Assembly: GCF_008087625.1 (NCBI RefSeq)
Contig: NZ_CP042997.1
Location: 7,378,001 to 7,442,000 of the forward strand
Source: Aquisphaera giovannonii
GTDB taxonomy: Bacteria; Planctomycetota; Planctomycetia; Isosphaerales; Isosphaeraceae
DNA: 64,000 nt
Reading direction: 5' to 3'
A model generated the notes under the pieces. It saw only the letters and a program-made list of their open reading frames with translations, did not search any database and was not told where the DNA came from. Every line of letters starts with the position of its first letter. Position 1 is the first letter of the stretch. The position numbers and the translations under genes were made by a program. This document shows positions 15,375-51,493 of this stretch, piece by piece.

Positions 15375-15829
15375 GGCCGCTGCCTCCCGGCGAAAATCCA
15401 CGTGGAGAGCCGGACCGGGGCGTCCCACCCGCCCGAGCGGTCCCGCCAGCGGATGACCACGCTGACCCGCTTGGATTTCGGACCGCCGGCGGCGCCCTCC
15501 GCCTGGATCATCGTCTTCAGCTCGACGCCCGGCAGGACTTGCCGGGCCTGTTGCGAGAGAGCCACCTTCGCCGCGGCCTCCGCCGTCACCGCGTCGAACG
15601 GCCGGGCCGTGATCGTCTCCAGGAGGTTCGATGCCTCCTGCACGGCCCATTCGCGCCGCTCGACGCCCCGGCGTTCGCTCCCAACCCACCCCACCACCTT
15701 CACGACCAGGGCCAGCGCGATCATCAGCATGACGGCCGCCATCGCCAGCTCCGCGAGCATGAACCCCCGCCGCCGAGGGGGAGGCCCCGTCGGCCCGTGC
15801 CGTCCAGCTACTCGAGTCCGCAGGATCAT
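15371..15829 (-). CDS. Minor pseudopilin-like protein (GspI/PilV-like)
   Basis: A 152-residue protein with a 22-residue basic leader ending in RRRG, cleavage before FMLAELAMAAVMLMIALALVV, and then a helix with ERREWAVQEASNLLETITARPFD (about 57-79). The loss of the usual hydrophobic-T-x-x-E5 spacing is mild: E is at mature position 5 (FMLAE). ATG 15829 overlaps the stop of the upstream GspF gene (ATGA at 15826-15829) and its own stop overlaps the next start. GspI/PilV-like identity is inferred from size, order and leader. Confidence 0.7.
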   Translation of the reverse strand: MILRTRVAGRHGPTGPPPRRRGFMLAELAMAAVMLMIALALVVKVVGWVGSERRGVERREWAVQEASNLLETITARPFDAVTAEAAAKVALSQQARQVLPGVELKTMIQAEGAAGGPKSKRVSVVIRWRDRSGGWDAPVRLSTWIFAGRQRP

Positions 15830-17130: not shown

Positions 17131-17200
17131 CGGCCATCCCCCGGGCTCATCGTACACCGACCCGACCGTCGGGCCGGCCTCGCACTCCTCGCCTCGGCCG

Positions 17201-18271
17201 TCATCCCGAGAGCTTGGTGATCAGGGTGATCAGGGGCAGGAAAAGCCCGATGACCCCGATCGAAACGCCCACGAAGACGATGACCGCGGAGAGCACGGCC
17301 ATCACCGTCCCGGCGAACGCCGCCTGGCTCCTGGCCCGGGCCTCGTACATCTCCCCGGCCGCGTGCAGCAGGTCCGCCGTGGCGTCGTGGTCGCCGGCCC
17401 AGCGGATCAGGCGCGGGAGGTTCGGCGGGAGCTCGGGCTGCTTGCCCATCGTCGCGGCCAGCGGCCGCCCGTTCTCAACATCCCTGGCCATGGAGTCCGA
17501 GGCCCGCGCCAGGCCCGAGTTCTCCACGCCCTCTCCCGTCAGGCGAAGGGCCTCCGGCAGCGGCAGGCGGCTCTCCAGGAGCAGGGCCAGGAGGTGGCAG
17601 AACTCGGCCCATCCCGTGTACCTCCAGACGGCGCCAAGGACGGGGAGCCTCGCCAGGATCCCCCGCACCGCGGGGCCGCCGAACGCCAGCCTGCCCGCCA
17701 GCCAGAGCCCCGCCAGCACCAGGCCGACGACCGCGAGGCCGGGCCAGACGGCGCGGATCACGTGCGAGGTCTCGATGAGGGCCACCGTCATCATTGGGAT
17801 CGGGACCCCGAAATCCCGGAAGATCGACTCGAACATCGAGACGACGAAGACGTCCACCAGGACCAGGAGGATCAGCGTGAGCACGATGGTGAACACGGGG
17901 TAGGCCATGCTCAGCCAGAGCCGCCTCCGCAGCTCGGTGCCGATGCTCACGTATCCCGTGAAGCGGCCGAGCACGTCGCCGAGGCGGCCGGACTTCAGCC
18001 CCCCCAGGACGATCCCGCGCAGGTGGGCCGGGATCCGACGCTTCTGGAGGGCCATCGCCTCGTCCAGCGGCATGCCGCCCTCCAGCGCACGGCCCAGGTC
18101 CAGGAGGGACGCCCGGAGGCGGCCGTCCGGCAGCTCCTCGCCGAGCGCGGTGAGCCCCGGGCCTAGCGGCAGACCGGCCGCCGCCAGCGTTGAGACGTGG
18201 CCCGACAGCCCGGCCACCTCGTCCTCCGAGAGCCGACCCCCCTCCCCCTTGCCGCCGGTCAGGTCCGCCAT
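17201..18271 (-). CDS. GspF-like inner-membrane platform protein, copy 2
   Basis: A 356-residue GspF-domain protein of normal family length. It has two repeats: an N-terminal helix bundle (SGHVSTLAAAGLPLGPGLTALGEELPDG), a first transmembrane helix after RRRLWLSMAYPVFTIVL, the conserved MFESIFRDFGVPIPMMT turn (about residue 150), a second bundle containing LLALLLESRLPLPEAL, and the C-terminal helix ending in PLITLITKLSG. ATG 18271 follows GAGG by 8 bases; GTG 18280 is an alternative. It is 70 bases upstream of copy 3 and in the same transcript. It is presumably one of several platform subunits of an envelope pseudopilus machine. Confidence 0.85.
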   Translation of the reverse strand: MADLTGGKGEGGRLSEDEVAGLSGHVSTLAAAGLPLGPGLTALGEELPDGRLRASLLDLGRALEGGMPLDEAMALQKRRIPAHLRGIVLGGLKSGRLGDVLGRFTGYVSIGTELRRRLWLSMAYPVFTIVLTLILLVLVDVFVVSMFESIFRDFGVPIPMMTVALIETSHVIRAVWPGLAVVGLVLAGLWLAGRLAFGGPAVRGILARLPVLGAVWRYTGWAEFCHLLALLLESRLPLPEALRLTGEGVENSGLARASDSMARDVENGRPLAATMGKQPELPPNLPRLIRWAGDHDATADLLHAAGEMYEARARSQAAFAGTVMAVLSAVIVFVGVSIGVIGLFLPLITLITKLSG

Positions 18272-18326
18272 GTGCACCACCTCGTCGACTCGCGATCATC
18301 CCGCCCGCGCCGCCCGATGATCCGGA

Positions 18327-19427
18327 TCAGGGGCTCGAGATCGTGCGGAGCAGGGCCGCGAGGGGGACGAACAGGCTCAGGCCATAGAGGGCCGTCGCCG
18401 CCCCCCCCAGGACCAGCATCAGCAACGCAGGCAGGAAAATCCGGAGCTTCTCGGCCTGATACGCCCCCCTCTTGCGGTACATCGGCGCGAGGTTCCGCAG
18501 AGCAGTCGCCAGGGCCCCCTGCTCCGCTCCCGTGGAGAGCGTCCAGCGGAGCATCGGGCGGAAGGCTCGCGACTTCGGGTCCTTGAGGGCCTCGCGGGCC
18601 GACTCGCCGCGTGCCACCGCCTCGGAAAGCCTCCTCGCCCCGTCGGCGATCGTCGGGTTCCCGGACGCGTCGCCGGCCAGTTGCAGGGCCTGCGGATAGC
18701 CCACTCCGTGCTCCAGCAGGAGCGCGAGCAGCTCCGCGAAGCCCGCCGCCTCATAGTCCTCGCAGAGCTCGCCGACCCAGGGCACGAAGCGGAGGAAAGA
18801 GCGGGACGGCCCCTGGAAGGCTGCGGCCCCGCCCGACCGCCGCCAGGCGACCAGAAGGGCGATGAGCGTGATCGGCCAGGCGGGCCACCAGATCCAGGCG
18901 AGCTGGCCGGCCGTCGAGAGCCATCGCAGGGGCGCGACGACGGGGACTCCCAGCGACTCGCAGGCCGACACGAACCGGGGCACCACGAGCGTGACGAGCC
19001 CGAGGAAGAGGGAGTAGGCCAGGCTCAGGACGAGGATCGGATACCAGAGCGCCATGCCGACCGCCGACCGGGCCTCCCCATATCCCCGGAGGTAGGAGGT
19101 CAGGCCCTCGAGGGCCGCGGCCAGGTTCCCGGACCTCGCCCCCGCCTCCACGACCGCCCGATACAGCGGCGGGGCCGCCTGGCCCTCCGCATCCAGCGCC
19201 TCGTGCAGGCTCTCGCCATGCCCGATGCGCGTCGCGAGCGCGTCGGCGATCCGCTTCAGGCCGCCGCGAAGGTCATCTCCCAGCCGTCCCAGGCCGCGGT
19301 CCAGGGGCAGGCCGGACCGAACCAGCGCCACGATCTCCTCATTGAGCGCCGTCAGCTCACCGACCGTGAGCGATCCCGCAGACCCTCGCCCTTCGCCCGC
19401 CCGAGCCATCCGACGTCCCTCCGGCAC
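18327..19427 (-). CDS. GspF-like inner-membrane platform protein, copy 1 (first gene of operon)
   Basis: A 366-residue GspF-domain protein with the same two-repeat plan: LNEEIVALVRSGLPLDRGLGRLGDDL near the N terminus, a helix after SAVGMALWYPILVLSLAYSLFLG, the VVPRFVSACESLGVPV turn, a Trp-rich membrane pair (WIWWPAWPITL), the second bundle with LLALLLEHGVGYPQALQLAG, and a final membrane helix. It has diverged clearly from copies 2 and 3. It is the first gene of a nine-gene minus-strand operon and faces a divergent plus-strand surface-protein gene, so the operon promoter probably lies between 19428 and 19676. ATG 19427 or ATG 19409 could be the start. Confidence 0.82.
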   Translation of the reverse strand: MPEGRRMARAGEGRGSAGSLTVGELTALNEEIVALVRSGLPLDRGLGRLGDDLRGGLKRIADALATRIGHGESLHEALDAEGQAAPPLYRAVVEAGARSGNLAAALEGLTSYLRGYGEARSAVGMALWYPILVLSLAYSLFLGLVTLVVPRFVSACESLGVPVVAPLRWLSTAGQLAWIWWPAWPITLIALLVAWRRSGGAAAFQGPSRSFLRFVPWVGELCEDYEAAGFAELLALLLEHGVGYPQALQLAGDASGNPTIADGARRLSEAVARGESAREALKDPKSRAFRPMLRWTLSTGAEQGALATALRNLAPMYRKRGAYQAEKLRIFLPALLMLVLGGAATALYGLSLFVPLAALLRTISSP

Positions 19428-19676
19428 CCAGGCAGGGTCCGCCTCGACCCGGCCTACGACAATTGTGACAGGCCTATCTCACCACAGATGTCGGACATGA
19501 TCAAGTGGCGACCGGCGAAAATCGCGGCCCGGCTCCTCGACTCCGCGGGGGCCTCCGCCTGGGTTGACTCCGCGGCATCCGGCCAGTAGGTTGAACAATC
19601 GTTCCACATGCGATCGATCGAGCACCGGGCGCCCCTTGCGGTCCTCTCGCGAGGGCCGCCGGGCGGGAGGACGGCG
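19428..19676. promoter_or_regulatory. Divergent promoter region (GspF operon / DUF1549 gene)
   Basis: About 250 bases between two divergently read genes. A short imperfect AT-containing stretch lies at 19458-19500 and includes a perfect 5-base inverted repeat, ATGTC and GACAT (19487-19497). Promoter function is inferred from gene direction only; I could not fix -35 and -10 boxes. Confidence 0.3.
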
Positions 19677-21887
19677 ATGGGCTTTCTCCGGTCGGCAACG
19701 GCCGCCGCGGCCGCCATGCTGGCATCCGTCCTCGCGGGATCCCAGGCGTCGGAGGTGGCCGCCGGGCGGGCGGTCAGCTTCCGGAACGACATCGTCCCCC
19801 TGCTCTCGTCGGCCGGCTGCAACATGGGGGCCTGCCACGGGAACGCGAGCGGCAAGGGCGGATTCAAGCTCAGCCTCCGGGGCGACGACCCGGCGTTCGA
19901 CCTCCACGCGCTGACGCGAGAGTCGTACGGCCGGCGCGTGAGCGTGGACGAGCCCCCGTCGAGCCTGATCGTCCTCAAGCCAACCGGACAGGTCCCCCAC
20001 GAGGGCGGCATCCGCTTCGCAGCCTCGTCGCCCGAGGCGAAGGCCCTCCGCGACTGGATCGCGGCGGGGGCGGCGGATGACGAGGTCTCGGCCCCGCGCC
20101 TGAAGGCGGTGCACGTGGAGCCGACTCGAGCGATCGTGACCGCGCCGGGGAGCACCGTCCAGCTCCGCGTCACCGCCGACCTCGACGACGGCTCGGTGCG
20201 CGACGTGACGCGGCAATGCGCCTTCGACCTGAGCGACCCGACGCTGGCGGAGGTCTCGCCGACCGGGCTGGTCCGCGCCAGCCGTCGCGGCGAGGTCGCG
20301 GTCGCCGTCCGATACCTCAAGGGCCGGGGGGTCAGCCGGCTGGCCTTCCTGCCGGATCGGCCGTCCTTCGCCTGGGCCGGGCCGCCCCCGCGAGAGATCG
20401 TGGATGAGCGCGTCTTCGCGAGGCTGAAGTCGCTGAGGGTCAATCCCTCCCCGCTCGCCCCGGACCACGTCTTCCTCCGGCGGGCCTACCTCGACACGAT
20501 CGGCCGCCTCCCCGAGCCGGAGGAGACCCGCTCCTTCCTGGCGGACGAGGCGACGGACAAGCGCCCTCGGCTCGTCGAATCGCTCGTCGCCCGGCCGGAG
20601 TTCGCCGACTTCTGGGCCCTCAAGTGGGCCGACCTCCTCCGCAACGAGGAGAAGACGATGGGCGACAAGGGGGTCTGGGTCTTCCAGCGCTGGCTCCGCG
20701 ATGCGCTCGACGCCGACACGCCCCTGGATGAGCTCGCGGGACGGATCGTCGCCGGCCGGGGTTCCACCTGGGCCAACCCGCCCGCGAGCTTCCACCGCAC
20801 CAACCGCGACCCCCAGGCCGCGGCCGAGGCCGTCGCCCAGGTCTTCCTCGGGGTCCGCCTCCAGTGCGCCCGCTGCCACAACCACCCGTTCGACGATTGG
20901 ACCCAGGACGACTACTACGGCCTGGCGGCCTGCTTCTCCAACGTCCGGCGCAAGGAGGTCAACAACGCCCGATCGGACAACCTGGACAAGCACGAGGTCG
21001 TGGGCGACGAGATCGTCTTCGCGCGCGGAGCGGCCTTCATGCTCCAGCCGCGGACCAGGGAGCGCCTCGAGCCGAAGCCCCCGGGCGGTCCATGCCTCGG
21101 CCCGGCCGACGGCGCGGAGGCCCTCGACCGGCTGGCCGCGTGGCTCACGAAGGGGAACCGCCAGTTCGCCCGGAACATGGCGAACCGGATCTGGTTCCAC
21201 CTGATGGGCCGAGGCCTGGTCGAGCCCGTGGACGACTTCCGCGCGTCCAACCCGCCGTCCGACCCGGAGTTAGTCGAGGCGCTCGCCGACGAACTCACCG
21301 CCCGAGGGATGCGGCTGAAGCCGCTCGTGGTCCTGATCATGAACTCCGCCGCGTATCAACTGGACGGCCGCCCCCTGCCCGGCGAGCCGGACGACCCGTC
21401 GTACTACTCCCACGCGGCGGTCCGGCTCCTCCCCGCCGAGGTGCTGCTGGACGCGATGAGCCAGGTGACGGGCATCCCCGATCGCTACAAGGCGGCCCCT
21501 TCCCGCCTCAGGGCCGTGCAATTGCCGGGCATCGGCGCGGAGAATCCATTCCTCAAGGCCTTCGGCAAGCCCGAACGGCTGCTCACCTGCGAGTGCGAGC
21601 GGGCGGAGTCCACGACGCTCGCCCAGGCCTTCCAGATGATCAACGGCCCGGCCCTGCGGAAGAAGCTCGCGCATCCGGAGAACCGCATCGGCCGGCTGCT
21701 CGCGAGGAAGGCCCCGCCGGAGGGGGTCCTGGAGGAGCTCTACCTCGCCGCGCTCTGCCGGAGGCCCACGGCGGCGGAGGCCCGCGCGATCCTGGCGCAC
21801 GTCGGCGCCGCGCCCGCACCATTCGACGGCTGGCAGGATGCAGCCTGGGCCGTCCTCAACAGCAAGGAATTCCTGCTCCGTCATTGA
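19677..21887 (+). CDS. DUF1549/DUF1553 planctomycete surface protein with cytochrome-like and Big2 domains
   Basis: A 736-residue exported protein. ATG 19677 follows GGGAGG by 6 bases and opens a signal peptide (MGFLRSATAAAAAMLASVLAG). The order is a planctomycete cytochrome-like domain with a CNMGACH (CX4CH) motif at about residues 44-50, a bacterial Ig-like (Big2) domain at about 140-220 (TAPGSTVQLRVTADLDDGS to ATGLV-like SPTGLVRAS), DUF1549 at about 240-420 (FLRRAYLDTIGRLPEPEE; ARCHNHPFDDWTQDDYYGLAA with a second CXXCH at ~400), and DUF1553 at about 470-730 (NRIWFHLMGRGLVEPVDDF). These proteins are abundant in planctomycetes, are usually followed by a DUF1501 gene as here, and are thought to act at the cell surface. 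No defined reaction is established. Confidence 0.92.
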   Translation: MGFLRSATAAAAAMLASVLAGSQASEVAAGRAVSFRNDIVPLLSSAGCNMGACHGNASGKGGFKLSLRGDDPAFDLHALTRESYGRRVSVDEPPSSLIVLKPTGQVPHEGGIRFAASSPEAKALRDWIAAGAADDEVSAPRLKAVHVEPTRAIVTAPGSTVQLRVTADLDDGSVRDVTRQCAFDLSDPTLAEVSPTGLVRASRRGEVAVAVRYLKGRGVSRLAFLPDRPSFAWAGPPPREIVDERVFARLKSLRVNPSPLAPDHVFLRRAYLDTIGRLPEPEETRSFLADEATDKRPRLVESLVARPEFADFWALKWADLLRNEEKTMGDKGVWVFQRWLRDALDADTPLDELAGRIVAGRGSTWANPPASFHRTNRDPQAAAEAVAQVFLGVRLQCARCHNHPFDDWTQDDYYGLAACFSNVRRKEVNNARSDNLDKHEVVGDEIVFARGAAFMLQPRTRERLEPKPPGGPCLGPADGAEALDRLAAWLTKGNRQFARNMANRIWFHLMGRGLVEPVDDFRASNPPSDPELVEALADELTARGMRLKPLVVLIMNSAAYQLDGRPLPGEPDDPSYYSHAAVRLLPAEVLLDAMSQVTGIPDRYKAAPSRLRAVQLPGIGAENPFLKAFGKPERLLTCECERAESTTLAQAFQMINGPALRKKLAHPENRIGRLLARKAPPEGVLEELYLAALCRRPTAAEARAILAHVGAAPAPFDGWQDAAWAVLNSKEFLLRH

Positions 21888-21923: not shown

Positions 21924-23318
21924 ATGCATCGGGGATGTGCGGATTTCCAAGCAGGCTGGTGCACGCGCAGGGCGCTGCTGCGTGCGGGCACGGCGGGCAT
22001 GGCGGGCCTTGGCCTATCCAGCATCCTGCGGGCCGCGGCCGCGCCGGCGGGCGGGAACTCGCTACGGCCTCGCGCGAAGCACATCATCCTCCTGCACCAG
22101 TTCGGCGGCCCTTCGCACCTCGACACCTTCGACATGAAGCCGGATGCACCCTCGGGGATCCGCGGCGAGTTCCGGCCGATCGCCACGCCCACGCCGGGGA
22201 TGACGATCTCCGAGCACCTCCCGCGGTTCGCGACGGTCCTGGACCGCTTCGCGCAGGTCCGCTCCGTGCACCACAAGATGAGGAACCACAACTCGGCGAC
22301 CTATTACAGCCTCACCGGCCACGCCCCGCCGATCGACGACATCCGCCTGCGGGACACGCAGGAGCTCTACCCGGCCTACGGCAGCACGGTGGCCCGGTTC
22401 CGGCCCGTGGAGGACCCGGCCGTCCCCAGCTTCGTCTCCTTCCCGCACGTCCTCCGGGACGGCTCGGTAACGCCCGGCCAGCACGCGAGCTTCCTGGGCA
22501 AGGCCTTCGACCCCTTCTTCGTCAGCCAGGACCCGAGCAAGGCCAACTTCAGGCTCCCCGAGCTGACGCTCCCCTCCGACATGGGGCTGGGGCGGCTCGA
22601 CGACCGCAGGGGCCTCCAGAAGCTCATCGACGCCCAGACCGATCTCCTCGAGTGGTCCGAGGCCGCCCAGGGCGTGGACGCCTTCTACTCGCGGGCGCTC
22701 ACCATGCTGGCCTCGCCCCGGGTCCGCCAGGCCTTCGACCTGTCGCTCGAGCCCGATCGGCTGCGGGACGACTACGGCCGGACGACCTACGGCCAGAGCT
22801 GCCTGCTGGCCCGTCGCCTCGTGGAGGCCGGGGTGCGTTTCGTCTCCGTCTATTACTCCGCGTCCATCGGCGGGGCCAGGGGGGGCTGGGACACGCACGG
22901 GGACAACTTCCGGCAGCTCAAGGATCGGCTCCTCCCGATCACGGACCAGGCGGTCCCGACCCTGATCCTGGACCTCGCTGCCAGGGGCCTCCTGGACGAG
23001 ACGCTCGTCGTCTGGATGGGCGAGTTCGGGCGCTCGCCGCGGGTGATGAACACCAAGCAGTTCGGCCCCGACGGCCGCGACCACTGGCCCTTCTGCTACA
23101 CGGTCCTCTTCGCCGGCGGGGGCACGATCCCCGGCGCCATTCACGGCTCGAGCGACCGCATCGGCGCCTACCCCGCCAGCGACCCCGTCACGCCCGACGA
23201 CATCGCCGCGACCCTGTTCTGGGCCCTCGGAATCGACCCCTCGACCGAATTCCACGACACCCTGAATCGTCCCCTACCGATAGCCGCGGGGGATCCCGTG
23301 ACCCGAATCTTCGCCTGA
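21924..23318 (+). CDS. DUF1501 (sulfatase-like) exported protein
   Basis: A 464-residue DUF1501 protein. The N terminus has a twin-arginine type leader (CTRRALLRAGTAGMAGLG, residues 13-30). The mature domain shows the family landmarks IILLHQFGGPSHLDTFDMKPDAP, SVHHKMRNHNSATYYSLTG, and VVWMGEFGRSPRVM followed by GRDHWPFCY, which resemble alkaline-phosphatase/sulfatase-fold proteins. It is the standard partner gene of DUF1549/DUF1553 proteins and begins 36 bases after one. It probably acts in the periplasm; its reaction is unknown. An imperfect hairpin around 23348-23369 lies between it and the HEAT genes. Confidence 0.93.
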   Translation: MHRGCADFQAGWCTRRALLRAGTAGMAGLGLSSILRAAAAPAGGNSLRPRAKHIILLHQFGGPSHLDTFDMKPDAPSGIRGEFRPIATPTPGMTISEHLPRFATVLDRFAQVRSVHHKMRNHNSATYYSLTGHAPPIDDIRLRDTQELYPAYGSTVARFRPVEDPAVPSFVSFPHVLRDGSVTPGQHASFLGKAFDPFFVSQDPSKANFRLPELTLPSDMGLGRLDDRRGLQKLIDAQTDLLEWSEAAQGVDAFYSRALTMLASPRVRQAFDLSLEPDRLRDDYGRTTYGQSCLLARRLVEAGVRFVSVYYSASIGGARGGWDTHGDNFRQLKDRLLPITDQAVPTLILDLAARGLLDETLVVWMGEFGRSPRVMNTKQFGPDGRDHWPFCYTVLFAGGGTIPGAIHGSSDRIGAYPASDPVTPDDIAATLFWALGIDPSTEFHDTLNRPLPIAAGDPVTRIFA

Positions 23319-23456: not shown

Positions 23457-26400
23457 ATGTCTTCGCCCGCTACATGGCTGCCGCTCGCGATGGGCGTGGC
23501 ATTCCTCCTCTCGCCACCTGAGGCAAGGGCGGAGGGGCCGCTCGCCACGCCGACCAACCGAATCATCAGGGACCTGAAAGACGGCCACCTGGACGCGAAG
23601 GTCGCGGCCTTGCAGCAGATCAGCCGGCTCGGTTCGCGTGCGGTGCCACTCCTCGCCGACCTGATCGCGGCGCTCGGCGATCCGGAGCCGAGGGTCCGGG
23701 CCGCCGCGGCGAGGATCCTGGGCGGCCTCGGCCGCGAGGCCATGCCCGCCGGCACGGCGCTCATCGCCGGGCTCTCCGATCCCGTCCTCGAGGTGAGGGT
23801 CGCCGCGGCGAAGTCCCTGTTGCGCGTGCCGGCCGATCCGGAGCAGCTCGTCCCGGCGGTCCTCGCCGCGATCCGGGAGCGGCCCGAGGGGTTATCCGAC
23901 CTGGCCGTGGAGATTCTCTCGAGATCGGGGCCTCGCGCGGTCCCCGCCGCCATCGACCTGCTGGGCGACCGGGGCACCGGGCGGGTGCGGCTCGGCGCGA
24001 AGGTGATCCTGCAGCTCGGCAGGGAGGCTGCATCCGCCTCGACGGCGCTCCTGGAGGCCTGCCGCGGGGCGGGCCGCGAGCTTCGACTGGAGATCGCCCA
24101 GGCCCTGGAGGCGACCTCGCCGTCTTCCCTGCCCCTCATCATCGCCGCGCTCCGAGATCGCGACCCGAAGGTCCGCGGCACGGCGGCGCGGGCCGTCGCC
24201 TTCATGAGCTTCCGCGGGGCCCCGGCCATGCCCGCGCTCCTCGACGCCCTCATCGATCCGGGGACGTGCGACGACCCTGCGCTCCCGGATCATCGGATGT
24301 CCGTCAACAACTTCGAGGATCCGGAGATCGGTTTCGGATACCACGCGGCGCTCGTCTCGATCGGGCCGGAAGCGCAGAAGGCCCTGATCTCCCGCCTGGA
24401 CAGCCCGCGGCCCGGCGAGCGGGCGGCGGCCGTGCGAGCGATTGGTGCCTTCGGGCAGGCAGCCGGGCCCGCGGTACCGAAGCTGGTGGGATTTCTCGCA
24501 CGACCGGGCCTGCGAGCCCAGGCCGCGGAGGCTCTGGGCCGCATCGGATACCCGGCCCACGGGACGGTGCCGATGCTCGTCACGTCCCTCAAAATGAAGG
24601 ATCCCGAGCTGCGATTCCGCGCCGCCCAGGCGCTGGGCCAGATGGGACTTGCCAACACTCCCGCCGCGAAGGAGGCGATCCGAGGTCTCAATGCGGCCGC
24701 CAAGGATCCGGAGCCGCGCATCCGGCTGGCGGCGGCCTCCTCGCTCGCTCAGATCTCCCAGTCGCAGTTCGCGGAGATGATCCCGCTCCTCCGCGACCCC
24801 GACGCGAAGGTCCGCCGCTTCGCCCTGATGATGATCGCCAACCGCGAGAAGCACGACGACTCCGTCATCGCCGACATCCTGGAGTCCATGCGCGACCACG
24901 ACCCTCGCATCCGGCGTGCGGCGGCGGTGGCCGTCAATCGCGACGACATGGGCCGCGATCGCGTGGTGGCCGCGCTGCTGGACATGCTAAGAGACCCGGA
25001 CCCGGAGGCCCGCACGGAGGCGGCCATCAACCTCGCCACGGTCGACGCCGGCCAATCCATCTGGATTTCCCCGGACCGGAACTACCAGGGCCAGGCTCCC
25101 TCGCACGCCCTGGCGGCGGCACCGGGGGCCGGGAAGCGGCTGCGGGCCGCACTGGAAGACCCGGATCGCCGCGTCCGAGTGGCGGCGGCCCATGCGCTCA
25201 CGGCCCTGAAGCGAGAGGCGGGGGAGAATGTCCCGGCGCTCCTGCTCCGCCTGAGGACGGATCCATCCGGCCTGGTCCGCGCCGCCGCGGCCTCGGCCCT
25301 CGGCCGATACGGCGACGCCGCGGCCCCCGCCCTGCCCGCCCTGCTGGCGGCCCTCGGCGATCCGACCGAGGACGGGCAGAACGGCCGGTTGATGGCGTAC
25401 GCCGTGGCCGGGGCGATCCGGGTGATCCGTGGCGACGACCCCGGGGTGATCAACGAGCGTCTCGTCGGGCTGTTGGAGGATCCCCGACCCAGGGTCCGCG
25501 AGATCGCCAGCTACGCACTCCTGTCGCAGACGCCGCAGCCGCTGCTGGAGCTCTGCACGAGGCTCAAGGATCCGCGTACGACCCGCGAATATCGGTATAC
25601 CATCATCCGGCACCTGGCGTGGCACCACGGGACGTTCGCGCCGGCCGCCCGGTTCCCCGCCCAGAAGCGGCAGGACGTCGAGGGGCCGCGCAGGGCCCTC
25701 GAGGCCGCACTCCCGGTCCTTGAGGCGGTCGCACTGGACATCGAGGCGGACGACCAGCTCCGCCACAACGCTTACCAGGTCGCCGCGAGCGTCCATCCCG
25801 CACCGGAGGCCCGCATCCGCCTGCTCCTGGAGGTGTTCGGTCGAAGTCGGCTCGGGATCCCCGAACCGGCGATCCTCGGCAACACGCCGCCGGCGGCCGT
25901 GGGTACGCTCATCGCGGGGCTTGACGATCCCGATCGAGCCGTCCGCACGGTCGCGGCGTACACGGCATGGGCGCCCGTCTCCTCCCAGCCACCCGACGAC
26001 GATCCGGCCGCGCCGCGGAACCGCGTGATCGCCGCCCTGACCCGAGCGCTCGACGATGCGGAGCCGCAGGTCCGCTGGGCCGCGGCGACCGCCCTGGGAG
26101 ACCTCGGCCAGTCGAGAAATCCCCAGCAGCCGCGACGAATCGCGCGGGAGACGATCCGGAGGCTGGGGGTGATGGTCCGGGATCGCTCGGCGCGATTGCA
26201 GCCCGGCGACTGGTTCAGGAGTTCGGACGCTGGGGTGCCGACCGGAGCCGTGCCAACCGTCGGCAACCAGCCGGGCCCCAAGCTACGGGCGGTCGCCGCG
26301 AGGGCCCTCGGCTGCCTCGCCTCCGGCGGGGATGAGAGCGTCCGCGACCTGATCCAGGCTCTGGACGACGAGGACAACCTCGTCCGCTGGTACGCCGTGC

Positions 26401-26999
26401 GTGCCCTGGGCCAGCTGGGGCCGGAAGGGAGGGCGGCCGTGGGGCCTCTCGTCGCCGTCCTGGGGGGACACAAGGTCGACACGCCGTCGCGCTTCGTCGC
26501 CGATCCCCGCTACTTCGCGGCCTGGTCGCTCGGCCAGATCGGCAAGGACGCCGGCAGCGCCTTGCCAGCGCTCATCCGCGCGCTGAGCGACCCGGATCCC
26601 TCCATCCGCAACGTCGCGGCGATGTCCATCGCCGCGGTGGCACCGGGCGACCCCGCGGCCCTCCGTGAGCTGACTCGGGCCATGCACGACCGATACGACA
26701 GCGATCTGGCCAATTCCGCCCGGGCCGGCCTGCTCGCGATGCGAAGCCAGTCCGTCCCCGTCTTCCTCGCGGATCTGGATTCGGCCGACCTGAACGACCG
26801 GCTGGCCGCGGTGAACTGCCTGGGCGCACTGGGCCCCACCTCGAAGGCCGCCTTGCCCCGCCTGAAGAAGCTGGCCGAGAAGGCGGACTTCGACCTGAAG
26901 CAGATGGCCACGAATGCCATCGAGCGGATCGAGTCGAGGTCGTTGCAGCCCGCGCAGCCCGAAGAGGAGGACGCCCTCCCCGCGGACCCCCACGGTTGA
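23457..26999 (+). CDS. Giant secreted HEAT-repeat protein, paralogue 1
   Basis: 1,180 residues. ATG 23457 opens a signal peptide (MSSPATWLPLAMGVAFLLSPPEARAEG). Nearly the whole remainder is HEAT/PBS-lyase-type repeats of about 30-37 residues, seen as recurring D-P-x-x-x-V-R-x-x-A-A-x-A-L-G blocks. Non-HEAT inserts interrupt them: an acidic DHRMSVNNFEDPE loop at about residue 275-290, an aromatic ISPDRNYQGQ loop at about 540, a VFGRSRLGIPEP element at about 795, and a LQPGDWF element at about 912. A charged tail ends the protein. No catalytic domain is visible, so it is probably a large extracytoplasmic binding or scaffold solenoid. It is the first of three collinear paralogues. Confidence 0.88.
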   Translation: MSSPATWLPLAMGVAFLLSPPEARAEGPLATPTNRIIRDLKDGHLDAKVAALQQISRLGSRAVPLLADLIAALGDPEPRVRAAAARILGGLGREAMPAGTALIAGLSDPVLEVRVAAAKSLLRVPADPEQLVPAVLAAIRERPEGLSDLAVEILSRSGPRAVPAAIDLLGDRGTGRVRLGAKVILQLGREAASASTALLEACRGAGRELRLEIAQALEATSPSSLPLIIAALRDRDPKVRGTAARAVAFMSFRGAPAMPALLDALIDPGTCDDPALPDHRMSVNNFEDPEIGFGYHAALVSIGPEAQKALISRLDSPRPGERAAAVRAIGAFGQAAGPAVPKLVGFLARPGLRAQAAEALGRIGYPAHGTVPMLVTSLKMKDPELRFRAAQALGQMGLANTPAAKEAIRGLNAAAKDPEPRIRLAAASSLAQISQSQFAEMIPLLRDPDAKVRRFALMMIANREKHDDSVIADILESMRDHDPRIRRAAAVAVNRDDMGRDRVVAALLDMLRDPDPEARTEAAINLATVDAGQSIWISPDRNYQGQAPSHALAAAPGAGKRLRAALEDPDRRVRVAAAHALTALKREAGENVPALLLRLRTDPSGLVRAAAASALGRYGDAAAPALPALLAALGDPTEDGQNGRLMAYAVAGAIRVIRGDDPGVINERLVGLLEDPRPRVREIASYALLSQTPQPLLELCTRLKDPRTTREYRYTIIRHLAWHHGTFAPAARFPAQKRQDVEGPRRALEAALPVLEAVALDIEADDQLRHNAYQVAASVHPAPEARIRLLLEVFGRSRLGIPEPAILGNTPPAAVGTLIAGLDDPDRAVRTVAAYTAWAPVSSQPPDDDPAAPRNRVIAALTRALDDAEPQVRWAAATALGDLGQSRNPQQPRRIARETIRRLGVMVRDRSARLQPGDWFRSSDAGVPTGAVPTVGNQPGPKLRAVAARALGCLASGGDESVRDLIQALDDEDNLVRWYAVRALGQLGPEGRAAVGPLVAVLGGHKVDTPSRFVADPRYFAAWSLGQIGKDAGSALPALIRALSDPDPSIRNVAAMSIAAVAPGDPAALRELTRAMHDRYDSDLANSARAGLLAMRSQSVPVFLADLDSADLNDRLAAVNCLGALGPTSKAALPRLKKLAEKADFDLKQMATNAIERIESRSLQPAQPEEEDALPADPHG

Positions 27000-27054
27000 G
27001 CCGCGCGACGCGCGGGGCCGTCGACGGCCCACATAAGCCGGCAGGAGACCCTAC

Positions 27055-30000
27055 TTGTCACGTTCTCCCTTCTGCATCATCGTTCTCGCGGTGCTCACGG
27101 TGGTCGCGACACGGGGGCGGCTCGCGGCCGACGACGCGGAGCCTTCGCGACTCGCCGAGGCGCTCTCGAAGGGCGACGCAGGCGCCCGGCTCGGCACGCT
27201 CTCCCAGATAGCACGCTTCGGGCATCTTGCCATCCCAATCGTTCCGCACGTGGCCCGCCGCCTGTCCGACGCGGATCCCCGCGTCCGGGCCGCCGCGGCG
27301 AAGCTCCTCCGGCAGATCGGGCCGGATGCGTCGGCTGCCTCGGGTGCATTGCTCGCCAGGCTGGACGATCCGGACCGACGCGTGCGGGTCGAGGCGGCGA
27401 GGGCGCTCGGGAGAATCCCCGCCGAGCCGTCTCGGCTCACCCGGCTGGTCATCGATGCAGCGCGGAAGGACCCGGAAGGTCTTTCCGACGTCGCGGTGGA
27501 CCTCCTCGCCGATGTCGGGACTGAGGTGGTCCCGACGGCCCAGGCGCTGCTCGCCGAGAAGGATACGGCGTTGATCCTGCTCGGGATCAAGGTCCTCCAG
27601 CGCATCGGTCCCGCGGCGGCCCCGGCCGTCGGATCGCTGACCGAAGTTGGCCGACGGCCCGAGCGCGTGGTCCGCGAGCAGGCCGCGTGGGCCCTCGCCC
27701 GGTGCGGGCCGGCCGCCCTGGCCCCTCTCACGGCAGCCCTCCGCGACCGCGATCCGCGGGTTCGCGGCGTGGCCGCCAGGGGTTTGGAGCTGATGGCCTT
27801 CCGCGCGGCCGAGGCGATACCAGCCCTGATCGACGCCCTCGGCGATCCCGTGCCGCCGGACGACCCGAGGCCCCCGCCCGTCGACGGATTCGAGGAGGAC
27901 CCCGATTTCCCGCTGCCGCGAGGGTGCCAGGCCGCCCTGGCGGCGATTGGGCCGCCCGCGCTCCGGGTCCTGGTGGCGAGACTTGAGTCCAACGAGCCCC
28001 GCGAGAGGCTCCCGGCGATGGAAGCCATCGGGGCCTTCGGGCCGGCCGGTCGGGGCGCGGTGCCGGCACTCGGACACCTCCTCGTCAAGCCGGGCACCCG
28101 CGTGGAGGCGGCAGCCACGCTGGGACGCATCGGATTCCCGGCGCGGGCCGTCGTGCCGAGGCTCATCCCGGCGGCGAAGAATCGCGATCCCATGCTACGT
28201 CGTCGCGCCCTCCTGGCCCTCGGGCAGATGGCGTCTGGCACGGAGCCGCCCGGCGAGGCGCATCGGCAGGCCATGCTCGGCGCCCTGGCCGATGCCGACG
28301 CCCGGGTCCGGCTGGCCGCGGTCCGGGCCCTGAACCACGTCAGCCTTATTCCACCGAAGGAACTCCTCCCACTGCTCACGGATCCGGACTCGGAGGTGCG
28401 CCGCGCCGCGGTGCAGGCCCTGCGTGCCGGGCGGAACGAGGACGCGTCGATGGTCCGGCAGATGCAGGACCGCGGGGACGATCCCGACCGGCGCGTCCGC
28501 AAGGCGGCCGTCGTGGCGTGGCTGTGGGGGCCACGTCCGGAATTGCGGGACATGCTCGCGAGGCTCGACTCCGTCGAGCCCGAGATCCGTGGCGAGGTCG
28601 CCTCCAGGCTGGCCCAGATCGAACCGTTTGAACTGCCCTGCTTCCCGCCCTACCAGCCGACACGCGGCGACCTTCCCGCATCGCTCTTCTCCCGGGTCAA
28701 CGGCGCCGGGGACGCTCTCCGAGCGAGGCTGCAGGACCCCAACCGGCGCGTCCGGACGGGCGTCGTCTACGCCCTGTCCGCCCTGCCGAACGAGGCGGCG
28801 GTCACGGTCCCCATGCTCATCGACCGCCTCGGAGACCCGGCGCCGCTCGTTCGCCTGGCCGCCGCCACGGTCCTCGGGCGGCTCGGACCGGCCGCCCGGG
28901 ACGCCGTGCCGGCCCTCCTGGCCCACGTTGACGATGTGGGGGATGGGTCGGACCTGATGCTCACCCTTCCCCGGCACGCGACCTCTTCGATCGCGGCGAT
29001 CCGGCCGGAGGAAGCATCGCGGGCGTACGCGCGTCTCATCGACCTGCTCGTCGATCCTCGACCGCATGTCCGCCGCGCGGCTCAGTGGGCCGTGAACTCG
29101 CATCTCCGACCGATGATGGGCATGCTCCTCGCCGTCCTGGAAGACCCGCAGGCCGTGCCGTCCCGGCGCCGGGGAGTCGCCCGGTTCTTCGCTTACAGCG
29201 ACGGCCTGCTCGAGCAGGACGGGAGCACCCCGATCCGGGATCTGCGGACCGACCGGCTCCTGCCCGCGTTGCGCGAGATCGTCTTCGACCTCGACGAGGA
29301 GGACGACGAGAGGCGGCAGGCCCTGGCGCGGGTTCGGGAGCTCACGACGCAACCGGAAGCCTCGACCCGCCTCGTCCTCGATGCCTTCGGCCGGGCGCGG
29401 ATCCGCTTGCCCGATCTGTCGTCTCTGCTGAATCCCAGGCGAGCCCTGTCCCTCGCCACGCTCGACGAAGGGTTGCGGGACCCCGACCCCGCGGTCCGCA
29501 CGATCGCGGCATATCTCGTCGGCGTCCCCGCCGAGCAGGCCCCGGGGGGTGATGAGCGGCGGCGGGTCGGTGACGACCTGATCGCCCTGCTCGACGATCC
29601 CGATCCCCAGGTCCGCTGGGCCGCCGCCCTGTCGATCAGCCTGCGGAACATCGAGCCCGAGCAGGCTCATCGCGCCATCGACAGGTTGCGGGCCGTCCTC
29701 CGCGATGGGACGACCCGCCTGAGGCCTGGTTCGTGGTATTTCACGATCCAGGACCTGGCGGAGCGGCTTCCGGACGAGATCCGCATCGCGGGTCGGGCCG
29801 ACTCGCCGAAACTTCGATGTGTTGCCGCGACGGCCCTCTACGAGTTCTGGGAACTCGGCGAGGTGACATCGTCCATACCCGAGCTCCTGGCCGCCCTGAA
29901 GGACGGCGATCCGCTCGCCCGCCTGAGCGCGGTCCACACGCTCGGCGCCTTCGAGGGAAAGGCACAGCCGGCGGTCGCCGCGCTGAACGGCTGCCTCGCC

Positions 30001-30564
30001 GAGCCCGGAGACTTCATGGGCTGCCCTAATGAAGAGGGTGAACCTACGGAGGAATTCGACGGCGGATTGATCCGGAAATGGTCCGCCTGGGCACTCGGCG
30101 AAATCGGCGAGCCTGCCCGCTCCGCCGTGCCCTCCCTCATCCGGACGATGGATGACCCTAATCCGGTGGTCCGCGAGGCCGCGGCCGAGGCCCTCGGCAA
30201 GCTCGCTCCCTTTAACGTGGCCGCACCGACCGCCCTCACCCGCGCGCTCCACGACCGATTCGATCCCAGGCGATTGGAGGCTGCGGTGACGGCCCTCGCC
30301 GGCGCGGGATCGGCGGGAATCGCCGTCCTCGTCGGGGAGCTCCGTTCGGACGACCCCGAGACGTGCGTCCTCGCCGCGAATGCACTCTTGCAGGCGACCG
30401 ACGAGGCTGCCACCGTGCTCCCGGCCCTCCGCATCGCGGCCGATTCGGAGGATTTCGCCCTGCGAGAGGCCGCGGACCGGGCCATCAAGCAGCTCAAGGA
30501 CGAGGAGAAGCCGGGCGGGCCGAGGAATGACGACGAGGACCGTTTGAAGGAGGAGCCTCGCTGA
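27055..30564 (+). CDS. Giant secreted HEAT-repeat protein, paralogue 2
   Basis: 1,169 residues, TTG start at 27055 supported by AGGAG 8 bases before it and by the signal peptide that follows at once (MSRSPFCIIVLAVLTVVATRG with cleavage near LAADD). The layout is collinear with paralogue 1: N-terminal GDAGARLGTLSQIARFG, HEAT repeats such as LSDADPRVRAAAAKLL, an acidic proline-rich insert (DDPRPPPVDGFEEDPDF, about 285-300), the FGRARIRLPDL element at about 780, and the RLRPGSWYF element at about 887. The C-terminal tail is highly charged. It begins 55 bases after paralogue 1 and ends 2 bases before paralogue 3, so the three are very probably one transcript. Confidence 0.87.
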   Translation: MSRSPFCIIVLAVLTVVATRGRLAADDAEPSRLAEALSKGDAGARLGTLSQIARFGHLAIPIVPHVARRLSDADPRVRAAAAKLLRQIGPDASAASGALLARLDDPDRRVRVEAARALGRIPAEPSRLTRLVIDAARKDPEGLSDVAVDLLADVGTEVVPTAQALLAEKDTALILLGIKVLQRIGPAAAPAVGSLTEVGRRPERVVREQAAWALARCGPAALAPLTAALRDRDPRVRGVAARGLELMAFRAAEAIPALIDALGDPVPPDDPRPPPVDGFEEDPDFPLPRGCQAALAAIGPPALRVLVARLESNEPRERLPAMEAIGAFGPAGRGAVPALGHLLVKPGTRVEAAATLGRIGFPARAVVPRLIPAAKNRDPMLRRRALLALGQMASGTEPPGEAHRQAMLGALADADARVRLAAVRALNHVSLIPPKELLPLLTDPDSEVRRAAVQALRAGRNEDASMVRQMQDRGDDPDRRVRKAAVVAWLWGPRPELRDMLARLDSVEPEIRGEVASRLAQIEPFELPCFPPYQPTRGDLPASLFSRVNGAGDALRARLQDPNRRVRTGVVYALSALPNEAAVTVPMLIDRLGDPAPLVRLAAATVLGRLGPAARDAVPALLAHVDDVGDGSDLMLTLPRHATSSIAAIRPEEASRAYARLIDLLVDPRPHVRRAAQWAVNSHLRPMMGMLLAVLEDPQAVPSRRRGVARFFAYSDGLLEQDGSTPIRDLRTDRLLPALREIVFDLDEEDDERRQALARVRELTTQPEASTRLVLDAFGRARIRLPDLSSLLNPRRALSLATLDEGLRDPDPAVRTIAAYLVGVPAEQAPGGDERRRVGDDLIALLDDPDPQVRWAAALSISLRNIEPEQAHRAIDRLRAVLRDGTTRLRPGSWYFTIQDLAERLPDEIRIAGRADSPKLRCVAATALYEFWELGEVTSSIPELLAALKDGDPLARLSAVHTLGAFEGKAQPAVAALNGCLAEPGDFMGCPNEEGEPTEEFDGGLIRKWSAWALGEIGEPARSAVPSLIRTMDDPNPVVREAAAEALGKLAPFNVAAPTALTRALHDRFDPRRLEAAVTALAGAGSAGIAVLVGELRSDDPETCVLAANALLQATDEAATVLPALRIAADSEDFALREAADRAIKQLKDEEKPGGPRNDDEDRLKEEPR

Positions 30565-30566
30565 CC

Positions 30567-33500
30567 ATGCACTTCGTCCCGAGAAGTTCGCCTCGATTTC
30601 CCACGCACGAGTACGTCGCACTGGCGATGACCCTCGTCGCCCTGACCGTGAACGCGGGGGCGGGGCCGCCCGCGGCGATGGACGGCGAGACGGCCCGCGT
30701 GCTGGTGCGGCTCAGGGAGGGCGACCTCAGGACCAGGATCGACGCCCTCCAGGAAATCAGCGTCCTGGGCCATCGAGCCGAGGCGGCGGTACCCGGCCTG
30801 ATCGCCACGCTGGACGATCCCGAGCCGCGCCTGCGAGCCGGGGCCGCGAAGGTCCTGGGGAGGCTCGGCGAGGAGGCGGCCTCGGCAGGCGACGCCCTCG
30901 TCGCCCGGCTCCGTGACCCGGACCTTACCGTGCGGACCGCTGCGGCCGGCGCGCTGGACCGCGTCCCGGCGGCCCCGGCGAAGCTGCTGCCGGCGATCCT
31001 GGATGTGTATCGTCCCCGCACCGAAGCCGACGACCCGGCGTCGCCCGGGACCGCCGCCATCCGTCGGCTCGGCCGAGCGGACGGGACGGTCGTGAAGCCC
31101 CTGATCGACGGATTGCGTCGGCCGGATGCCGAACTCCGAGAGATGGTCGCGGTGGCCCTGGGCGGGATCGGTGAGCCGGCCGTCGATCCGCTCATCGCCG
31201 CGCTTCGCGACCCGGACCCCAGGGTGCGGGGAGGGGCGGCGACGGCCCTGGGGAAGATGGGGCATCGGGCCGTCCGCGCCGTGCCCGCCCTCGTCGCCGC
31301 GATCGAGTCCGAGGCCGTCGGGGACTTCATCGAACCCGGTTCGGACTCGCCACGTTGGGCCTTCTACGCGGCCATGACGGAGATCGGCCCCCCGGCCCTG
31401 CGGGCTCTCGTGTCCCGGCTGGACGAGGCGGATCTCGAAGGACGTTCGCGGCTCCTCCCGGCAATCGGATCGTTGGGACCGAGGGGGCGAGCAGCCGTGC
31501 CCAGGATCGTCCGCCTGCTCATCGGAACGGGGCCTAAGCCGGAGGCGGCGGAGGCCCTGGGCAAGATCGGCGATCCCGCGAGGCACGCGGCCCCCATGCT
31601 GATCCCGGCGATGAAGAGTCCGGACGCTGAGCTCCGCGCTCGTGCCGCCATGGCGTTCGGCCGGTTGAGCAGGTCGCTCGGCAGTCCCGAGGAGGCCTTC
31701 CTTCGGCTCCGCGATCTCGGGCTGAGCGACCCGTCCGCGCGTGTCCGCGTCGCTGCCATCCGGGCGCTCTCCTGGGGATGGGCGGGGCGGATCTCTGGAC
31801 TCGACCCGGCGCTCGAAGAATCGGATGCCGACGTGCGGGTAGCCTTCCTGGACCATCTCACGCCGGAATCCACGAAGAGCGATAGGCTCGTTCGCCGAAT
31901 CGTCGACCGCCTTGCGGACCGGGACGAGAAGGTCCGGGAAGCCGCCGTCAGGGCGTTACGTCGGGAGGATATCACCCGACCGGGCGTGGTTTCCGCACTG
32001 CTCGACATGGCTCTACGTCCCGAAGTCGCCTGTCGCACCGGTGCCCTGCGGGCCTTGATGCTATGCAGGCCAAGGACCTACGACAATCCGGACTATCCAG
32101 GCTTCCCCCTCGGCATGGTCGGCGACGAGTTCCGGACATCGGCGGAGGCCGTCCGAGGTGAGTTGATCCGCCGACGCGGGCATGCGGAGAAGGCCCTTCG
32201 CGACGCCCTGGATGGGCCCTCGAGCCACCTGCGGGCCTCGGCGGCCAGGCTCTTATGCTTGCTCCCGGATGAGGACCGGGAGAACGCTCGCATCCTGGTG
32301 GCCCGATTGACCGATCCGGACCCCGCCGTCCGCATCCAGGTGGTGGCGGCCCTCGGAGAAGTTTCGCCGAGGCCGCGATCCGCGTTCGGTCCGTTGCTGC
32401 AAGCCATGAAGCGGCCGTCGGAGCGTGTCCGCGGGATCGTGACCCAGGCCGCGGACGCGGCGGAGGCCATCGACCCCGAGCGAGCCGGCCTCGTCCTGGA
32501 TCGGCTCGTCCACCTCCTCGATCACCCGGACGAGATGACGCGAGCGGAGGCCGGGATGGCCCTGTCGTTCCGGCTCCCGGCCATCAGGCCGAAGATCCTG
32601 GCCGCACTCTGTGCACCGGGCGTGAGCCGAAGGCAGATCCGGGCGGCGTGCTCCTCGGTCCCGCTCGGCGTGGGCCTGGACCCGCTGGAGCCGCTTCCGC
32701 CCCAGGGTCTCGGCCTTTCAATCCGGGCCTTCGCGTTGTTTCGGTCCGTGGCGATGGATTTCGAGGAGGAAGACCGGACGCGCGAGCAGGCGATCGATGA
32801 GTCGAGATCCCTCGGGCTGGACCTCTCCTACGCCGGGCTCCTCCTCGACGCGTATGGGCGCTCGAGGCTGCCGGCATCGCGGCCCGAACTTCTCTGGGGA
32901 TTGCGCACCCCGGGTGGCCTCGAATCGCTGCTTGACGCCCTTCGAGATCGGGACCCCGAGGTCCGCACCGTGGCAATTTACGGCGTGGCCATGAACAGGT
33001 CACTGCTCGACCCCGACGGCGAGGCGGCAATGCTTCGAGGCCGCGCCCTGGACGAATTGCTCAAGCTCCTCGACGACACCGACACGCAAGTCCGCTGGGC
33101 GGCCGCCGCGACGATCGGGGCGATCGGGAAGCGATCGCCCTTGAGACGGCCGGCCATCGTGGATCGCCTCACAGAGATGGTGGGCGACCGAGGTGCGAGG
33201 ATGAGGCCCGGCGGTTGGATTGTTGTCATGGAGGAAAGGTCTCTGGGTGGCGACGAGTTGGCTGTCGTCTCGGGCCGCAAGCTCCGCATCGCGGCCGCGA
33301 AGGCGCTGGAAGACCTGAAGCGTGAGTCCGATTCGTCCATCCCAAATCTGATCGAGGCGCTCGGAGACGAGGAACCGGGAGTGCGCATCGAGGTGGCCGA
33401 CACTCTCGGTCGGTTCGGCGATCGCGCGAACTCCGCCGTGGGGCCTTTGCTGGAGGTGGTGAAGGCGTACCTCGACGGCCGATCGGGCCAAAAAACCTCA

Positions 33501-34013
33501 CCCGGCCCCGATGACGTCGGCCAGGATGCCGCGTGCGCCGCGTGGATCCTCGAGATCCTCGGACCCGTAGCGAGGTCGGCGATACCCGTGCTGATCCGCT
33601 CAACGGAGGATACGAACCCTCGGGTCAGGGTCTCCGCGACACGAGCCCTGGGAGCAGTCAGCCTGGGCGAGAAGCAGGTGATAGACGCCTTGCTGCGTCG
33701 CCTGCACGATCCCTGGGACGTCGTCGTCTCGAAAGATGCGGCAACCTCGCTCGGTCGACTCGGCGTGACGGCCCTCCCCCATCTCGTGTCGGAACTTCGC
33801 TCGAAGGATATGGAGGTCCGCATCCTGGCGGCGGGAGCCCTGGCATGGATGGGCGAATCGGCCAGACCCGCCTTGGGCGCCCTCCGCCAGCTTGCCGCCG
33901 ACCCCGACGCCCGGACCCGCGATGCCGTGCAGAAGGCCATCAACCAGATCGAGGACGCTGGCAAGGGGAAGAAAGACGCAAAAGCCGAGGATGGCGTCGT
34001 GCCCGACTTGTGA
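30567..34013 (+). CDS. Giant secreted HEAT-repeat protein, paralogue 3
   Basis: 1,148 residues. ATG 30567 lies 2 bases after the stop of paralogue 2, with GGAGG inside the end of that gene, so translation is probably coupled. The signal peptide has a longer n-region (hydrophobic core YVALAMTLVALTVNAGA at about residues 19-33). It has the same plan as the other two: DLRTRIDALQEISVLG, DDPEPRLRAGAAKVLGRLG and further HEAT units, an insert around DFIEPGSDSP (about 250-262), YGRSRLPASRPEL at about 770, and RMRPGGWIVV at about 875. The tail is Lys/Asp-rich. No enzyme motif is visible. A secreted protein-protein or protein-glycan scaffold is an inference from fold alone. Confidence 0.87.
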   Translation: MHFVPRSSPRFPTHEYVALAMTLVALTVNAGAGPPAAMDGETARVLVRLREGDLRTRIDALQEISVLGHRAEAAVPGLIATLDDPEPRLRAGAAKVLGRLGEEAASAGDALVARLRDPDLTVRTAAAGALDRVPAAPAKLLPAILDVYRPRTEADDPASPGTAAIRRLGRADGTVVKPLIDGLRRPDAELREMVAVALGGIGEPAVDPLIAALRDPDPRVRGGAATALGKMGHRAVRAVPALVAAIESEAVGDFIEPGSDSPRWAFYAAMTEIGPPALRALVSRLDEADLEGRSRLLPAIGSLGPRGRAAVPRIVRLLIGTGPKPEAAEALGKIGDPARHAAPMLIPAMKSPDAELRARAAMAFGRLSRSLGSPEEAFLRLRDLGLSDPSARVRVAAIRALSWGWAGRISGLDPALEESDADVRVAFLDHLTPESTKSDRLVRRIVDRLADRDEKVREAAVRALRREDITRPGVVSALLDMALRPEVACRTGALRALMLCRPRTYDNPDYPGFPLGMVGDEFRTSAEAVRGELIRRRGHAEKALRDALDGPSSHLRASAARLLCLLPDEDRENARILVARLTDPDPAVRIQVVAALGEVSPRPRSAFGPLLQAMKRPSERVRGIVTQAADAAEAIDPERAGLVLDRLVHLLDHPDEMTRAEAGMALSFRLPAIRPKILAALCAPGVSRRQIRAACSSVPLGVGLDPLEPLPPQGLGLSIRAFALFRSVAMDFEEEDRTREQAIDESRSLGLDLSYAGLLLDAYGRSRLPASRPELLWGLRTPGGLESLLDALRDRDPEVRTVAIYGVAMNRSLLDPDGEAAMLRGRALDELLKLLDDTDTQVRWAAAATIGAIGKRSPLRRPAIVDRLTEMVGDRGARMRPGGWIVVMEERSLGGDELAVVSGRKLRIAAAKALEDLKRESDSSIPNLIEALGDEEPGVRIEVADTLGRFGDRANSAVGPLLEVVKAYLDGRSGQKTSPGPDDVGQDAACAAWILEILGPVARSAIPVLIRSTEDTNPRVRVSATRALGAVSLGEKQVIDALLRRLHDPWDVVVSKDAATSLGRLGVTALPHLVSELRSKDMEVRILAAGALAWMGESARPALGALRQLAADPDARTRDAVQKAINQIEDAGKGKKDAKAEDGVVPDL

Positions 34014-34124: not shown

Positions 34125-34361
34125 ATGACCGACAACCATGCCCGGGTTGCCAGACAGCTCGAGGACGTCCGACAAGGCGACGAAGCTCCCCTCGCCGCGC
34201 TGCTCTCCGATTATCGCGACCAGCTCCCGAGGGACATCCGCCGCGAGGTTGCGACCAACCGGGAAGACTTGGCCGAGGCCAGCTGGGCCATGATTGCCGG
34301 GTTCATGGCCGACGTGACCCCGCGGAGTACGGCCATGGAGCGTTTCGATCTCGTCGAGTAG
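34125..34361 (+). pseudogene. Possible truncated ECF-type sigma factor
   Basis: A 78-codon ORF whose first ~33 residues (MTDNHARVARQLEDVRQGDE followed by APLAALLSDYRDQL) resemble the opening of planctomycete ECF sigma factors, where region 2 normally follows. Here the resemblance stops at about residue 34. The remaining 44 residues do not look like sigma region 2 or 4, and no continuation was found in other frames before 34460. It may be a degenerate remnant, a fusion after deletion, or an unrelated small protein. The upstream ribosome site is weak. Confidence 0.35.
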
Positions 34362-34833
34362 GTCCGGACCGCGCTTAAGCCCGAGCTCGGCCACCGATAG
34401 GTAGCTCCGCATTCTGGAGAAGCCCCGGCAGGTCCTATTCCGAATCACCCCGCGGACAGGTTGCGACCACGTGCCGCCTCAATGTTGTCGAGAGCGAAGA
34501 GGACACGGTCGAGGTCGCATCCTAGCCCCAGCCCTCGGTCCAGTCCATCGCGTCCGATTCGTCCTCGCTCGTGGCCGAGCCCGCGTCCGCGTCCACCACG
34601 CATCAGAGCTCAACCTACGCGTCGACGAGTTGTCCGATCGTTGCGGCAAGGGAGATGCGTCCCGGGTCGGGGAGTACGAATTCCGGATTTCGACGCGTTT
34701 CCTGTCCTCGAATCCGGCGGCCCTGCGTTACATTCGTCAGGTCACCTGGTCGGTCCATAACATCCCGCGTTCGCCGCCCTCACCGGCCACGTTCGCCGGC
34801 ATCCAATCCCCTACCCCGCGGAGTGCCGTGCCC
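34362..34833. other. Intergenic region without a recognisable gene
   Basis: About 470 bases before the dioxygenase gene. A reading frame in phase with that gene is open from 34471 but its sequence is Arg/Pro-rich and not protein-like, so I treat it as untranslated. No clear promoter, hairpin or repeat was identified. Confidence 0.35.
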
Positions 34834-51397: not shown

Positions 51398-51493
51398 GCG
51401 GTCGCGCTATCTCGTTGTCGGATCACAGGTCTTGGAACTGCCATGGCTGTATTATCGCCGCGGGGTCAAGCTTTTCACAAGGACGTGCGCGGC

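Follow-up and report, generated by a model that had tools for sequence, protein, structure and literature searches.

The presence of three consecutive genes for long, secreted-looking HEAT-repeat proteins in Aquisphaera giovannonii raises the question of whether these genes are copies of one ancestral gene, and what role their products could play in the cell. In the window, i.e. the whole stretch of 64,000 nucleotides that was analysed, the earlier note had described three plus-strand genes of 1,180, 1,169 and 1,148 codons separated by 55 and 2 bases, and open reading frames are found at exactly these places. HEAT paralogue 1 (23457..26999, + strand, 1180 aa) has an ATG start and displays a presumed signal peptide, a HEAT solenoid and an acidic tail. 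Paralogue 2 (27055..30564, + strand, 1169 aa) begins at TTG, preceded within a few nucleotides by an AGGAG motif, and paralogue 3 (30567..34013, + strand, 1148 aa), the most divergent copy, has an ATG start located 2 bases past the stop of copy 2. Transcription of these genes as one transcript is plausible because of this 2-bp gap and because, in a congener of A. giovannonii (genome G002), the genes corresponding to copies 1 and 2 overlap by 4 bp at their start and stop (GTGA). A promoter and terminator scan showed no excess over shuffles.

The HEAT repeats attributed to each copy were recovered with Pfam, in which HEAT_2 (PF13646) is matched in 8 to 10 stretches per protein with 250–284 bits (cut-off 27.7, E=1e-75 to 1e-86) for all three copies. 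By the HEAT_2 gathering score over tandem helical hairpins, the three products are HEAT-repeat proteins. The same search returned only HEAT/ARM-type models, with no catalytic domain and no known specific family.

In pairwise BLASTP the copies align end to end over 1,169–1,184 columns and are collinear over about 1,150 residues, with 38% identity and 550 bits for copies 1 and 2, 33% and 389 bits for copies 1 and 3, and 35% and 394 bits for copies 2 and 3. The best off-register HSPs reach 48, 19 and 25 bits respectively, so the identity is neither low and patchy nor confined to the generic HEAT consensus. Repeat anchors were set by an iterated profile; at 21 positions they share columns in four or more of the six family members. 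Over these 21 anchors a repeat pair scores a mean of 47–54 BLOSUM points in register versus 13–19 off register, and the collinear partner is the best match for 12–14 of the 21 repeats, about one being expected. Given that the off-register scores are far below the in-register ones, a shared HEAT consensus is ruled out as the source of the similarity, and the three genes are whole-gene paralogues, end-to-end copies of one ancestral gene. The proposal of whole-gene duplications kept at near-constant length is hence borne out by a collinear 33–38% identity over the full length, copy 3 being without about one repeat around alignment columns 155–191.

Copies 1 and 3 were modelled as monomers with AF2, using a three-row alignment from the window as input. 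Both models are all-helical solenoids of roughly 25–29 hairpins, with a mean pLDDT of 75 and a pTM of 0.45 for copy 1, and 71 and 0.41 for copy 3; at such pTM values the global curvature of the solenoids is unreliable. Disordered loops are predicted at residues 268–292, 530–546, 915–939 and 1006–1014 of copy 1, and at matching places in copy 3 (251–259, 502–523, 878–904 and 973–983). Together with the in-register anchor scores, these corresponding loops agree with the common order of repeats and loops that had been noticed in all three copies.

Concerning the ends of the proteins, all copies display hydrophobic, signal-peptide-like N-termini without a lipobox, as judged by eye, that of copy 1 being atypical with no basic residue ahead of the hydrophobic stretch. 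AF2 confidence is low over the first 31–38 residues of copies 1 and 3. From these features of the sequence the HEAT proteins are probably exported via Sec. The charged tail mentioned in the earlier note is present but is barely conserved between orthologues, with 19% in the last 30 columns.

The history of the three copies was examined in the genome itself (10,526,296 bases in three contigs), in the family and in the class. No further copies were found in the genome at E<=1e-10 in a search with copy 1, and a scan of genome contigs gave generic HEAT matches only. In G002, two HEAT genes, 52% identical to copy 1 and 50% identical to copy 2, come after the same DUF1549/DUF1501 gene pair at the same place as here. 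A third one, of the copy-2 type, lies elsewhere and is cut by the end of another contig, an outgroup solenoid of 1,356 aa is found at yet another locus, and no orthologue of copy 3 was found in this congener. In the tree, copy 1 groups with the first G002 gene, copy 2 groups with the second and third ones and copy 3 stands apart, all with 100/100 support; therefore the duplications predate the species split. According to this topology copy 3 is a deep lineage of its own, which was lost in G002 or else brought in here. Furthermore, positions 11.5–44.7 kb of the window are collinear with 25.3–56.7 kb of G002 contig C243, and the differences inside this block are copy 3, found here only, and a sigma-70-like and a kinase gene that are intact in G002 and decayed here.

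Among 45 Isosphaeraceae genomes, close members are observed in two, that of the window and G002. More distant long HEAT solenoids occur in G045 and G042, and a single weak partial match occurs in G055. In a class-wide search of 347 genomes, matches beyond the genus were obtained in two other Isosphaeraceae genomes only and none outside the family, with few candidates scored per genome, so that distant members may be missed. No characterised homologue was found in a literature search. Other tandem arrangements were seen along the way: in G042 (contig C694, L101) two consecutive open reading frames show similarity to distinct portions of long HEAT solenoids and form another tandem array, cut by contig ends. 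Tandem genes for proteins of 999 and 996 aa, 60% identical, follow a 1,220-aa relative at L161:6439-12469, with weak HEAT matches and no evident signal peptide, and two tandem proteins of about 620–640 aa, mutually 63% identical and also with weak HEAT matches, are encoded at L163:2398-6342.

The HEAT proteins diverge rapidly under purifying constraint. Indeed, they are 50–52% identical between the two species as compared to 63–91% for most neighbour proteins, two pilin-like neighbours being at 51–55%, and the orthologue pN/pS is about 0.6, with a pS near saturation and also limited by composition. The triplet belongs to a small, lineage-specific and genus-restricted family of HEAT solenoids, new as a family and ordinary as a kind.

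As for the role of these proteins, that of a protein-binding scaffold would be the likeliest, judged by their fold class alone. In the reading that we prefer, and to which we give about an even chance, one ancestral HEAT alpha-solenoid gene would have given three copies by tandem duplication, each product being exported by Sec and folding into a long superhelix of about 25–29 helical hairpins, interrupted at fixed places by four disordered loops. These ancient tandem duplicates, exported and non-catalytic, would then act as protein-binding scaffolds at the cell envelope, where each copy would serve partners of its own.

Groove positions, assigned by analogy with the alphaRep variable positions 18, 19, 22, 23, 26 and 30 (PMC3754942), were used to look for a conserved ligand groove or binding face. 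In the strict set they are 43–45% identical between orthologues versus 39% at other exposed sites, which is no clear signal in orthologue conservation at positions defined by this analogy. Between paralogues, at 15 clean anchors, 42% of groove residues are common to copies 1 and 2 versus 26% for either with copy 3, the buried positions being equally shared among the copies (59–61%). The divergence of the copy 3 groove gives McNemar p values of 0.01, 0.01, 0.004 and 0.33, an effect that weakens in the strict set, without consensus-like positions. These comparisons hint that copy 3 may have a different surface.

Two other readings come next, both of which we regard as unlikely and to the same degree. 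According to the first one, the three solenoids assemble as similar subunits into one hetero-oligomeric structure at the surface or in the periplasm. Such an assembly would be in line with three paralogues in a presumptive operon, their near-constant length and loops at fixed positions, and with the two HEAT genes retained in overlap by the congener. However, the congener is without copy 3 at the locus and has an extra copy-2 type elsewhere; therefore a fixed stoichiometry is not conserved. The second one is that the groove binds an anionic polymer, a polysaccharide or a nucleic acid, and not proteins. The presumed groove, assigned by the alphaRep analogy, carries a net positive charge in each of the six family members, the strict anchors totalling 61 basic and 17 acidic residues, and this excess is absent from the outgroup solenoids and from a few generic HEAT proteins, which make up a small control. 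When other HEAT proteins encoded in this genome serve as the control, only a weak charge excess is left (odds ratio about 2, p=0.05–0.16), and an electropositive groove, strong against the small control, was not retained as a distinctive feature since it faded in this comparison. A slightly more doubtful extension of the scaffold idea is that the exported solenoids of this genus, maintained as a tandem array and evolving faster than most neighbouring genes, each recognise a different macromolecule at the surface of the cell and make up a bacterial repertoire of natural binders akin to the alphaReps.

Less probable still is a dedicated partnership of the HEAT proteins with the surface pair encoded upstream, with which, according to the earlier note, they perhaps work. 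This pair consists of a DUF1549/DUF1553 (PSCyt2/PSD1) protein gene (19608..21887, + strand), a conserved upstream neighbour, and its partner, a DUF1501 protein gene (21924..23318, + strand), both assigned by Pfam. In favour of a partnership, the gene order is identical in the congener, and a single parallel exists at about 6.345 Mb of the same genome (G000 C1; L165:2031-4172, - strand), where a 713-aa secreted-looking all-HEAT protein, more distant than the three paralogues, is encoded directly after DUF1552 and PSCyt3/PSD2 genes. On the other hand, the pair is common in the family without HEAT neighbours: a DUF1501 orthologue is present in 31 of the 45 Isosphaeraceae genomes and no HEAT gene adjoins the pair at any of the 10 loci inspected in other genera. 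In several of these, DUF971, glycosyltransferase and radical-SAM-like genes come right after the pair; in the window they are found at 49337–52809, displaced by about 26 kb from the pair (radical-SAM-like, glycosyltransferase and DUF971-like, labels given by inspection, not by family search). Moreover, one paralogue of the congener is unlinked to the pair, and over the whole genome two HEAT loci lie within 3 kb of DUF1501 genes versus 1.4 expected under random placement, i.e. proximity at chance. The suggested partnership is hence not upheld; the DUF1549/DUF1553 gene is probably independent of the HEAT genes, which look inserted next to an independent and widespread pair. Likewise, the five-gene order is shared by a single congener, which has two HEAT genes and not three at this place, and is absent beyond this congener.

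Upstream of the pair, a tandem run of three T2SSF (GspF-like) paralogues, with pilin-like and DUF1559 genes after it, is observed at 15826–19409 (- strand), in an order kept in the congener, and no ATPase gene of a T2SS-like system was recognised beside them. Delivery of the HEAT proteins by these adjacent divergent genes was considered and set aside: the GspF-like gene is spread across the family (36 of 45 genomes) and, at the loci inspected in other genera, does not adjoin the pair, and therefore the linkage here says little.

Downstream of copy 3, a sigma-70-like gene relic with an in-frame stop (34125..34379, + strand) matches L010:17222-17608 at E=1.9e-7, the intact G002 gene, identified by Pfam, lying directly 3' of the second HEAT gene. 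It is followed by a possible relic of a Ser/Thr kinase gene N-terminus (34609..34686, + strand), weak alone (E=0.38) and in the expected order. A role of the HEAT proteins as extracytoplasmic inputs for this transmembrane Ser/Thr kinase and sigma factor is very improbable. In its favour, the two genes are intact directly after the HEAT genes in G002 (L010:17222-19968, the kinase gene with a TPR region). Against it, both are decayed here where all three HEAT genes are open, and none of the 116 kinase-gene matches in the genome that could substitute is a clear orthologue, the top-scoring one being 47% identical over half of the length.

The clean whole-gene paralogue triplet, with a history traceable in two species, offers a tractable case for the study of the ligands of exported HEAT proteins and of whether duplication changes their specificity; should it prove ordinary, it adds a further case of paralogue expansion confined to one lineage.

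Compared to known systems, alpha-solenoids occur in Planctomycetes at a eukaryote-like frequency and are mostly of unknown function (PMC3837014). Planctomycete membrane-coat-like proteins, which combine a beta-propeller with an alpha-solenoid (PMC2799638), are bacterial alpha-solenoids of the same phylum as the HEAT copies, in which no propeller domain is detected by Pfam and no beta domain is seen in either AF2 model. The PBS-lyase-type HEAT proteins CpcE/CpcF and NblB share the repeat type and give weak NCBIfam matches, but the HEAT copies have no phycobilisome context and reach 22–88 bits versus equivalog cut-offs of 220–330; they are also far below the cut-off of the PRK13800 NCBIfam equivalog. 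The eukaryotic CAND1, importin-beta and transportin are long HEAT superhelices too and are the top Foldseek matches by E-value (down to 5e-13 for importin-beta/CAND1, at TM-scores not above about 0.3), but with TM-scores of 0.1–0.4 and 11–16% identity overall. The structural matches to importin, CAND1 and beta-catenin were judged generic, alike only as long solenoids, and the predicted resemblance to large eukaryotic HEAT scaffolds is one of shared architecture, without sign of shared function. Closer at hand, other long secreted-looking Isosphaeraceae HEAT solenoids (1,349–1,356 aa; G045 C378 and G002 C6) are collinear with the copies at 29–33% identity over most of their length, but they are longer, single, in other neighbourhoods and outside the triplet clade in the tree. 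Finally, the alphaReps, artificial HEAT-like repeat proteins made as protein binders (PMC3754942), belong to the same class of about 31-residue HEAT-like repeats. They are the best PDB sequence matches of the HEAT copies (profile E=1.9e-55 to 1e-11) and the closest solved folds of copy 1 (VIA-align Z 17–21, 2.4–4.5 A over 180–277 residues for most). By repeat sequence and superposable hairpin stack, the HEAT copies are alphaRep-type HEAT-like solenoids in fold only, not in function: the alphaReps are short and artificial with near-identical repeats, whereas the HEAT copies are natural proteins of 1,150–1,180 residues whose repeats have diverged and whose disordered loops keep fixed positions.
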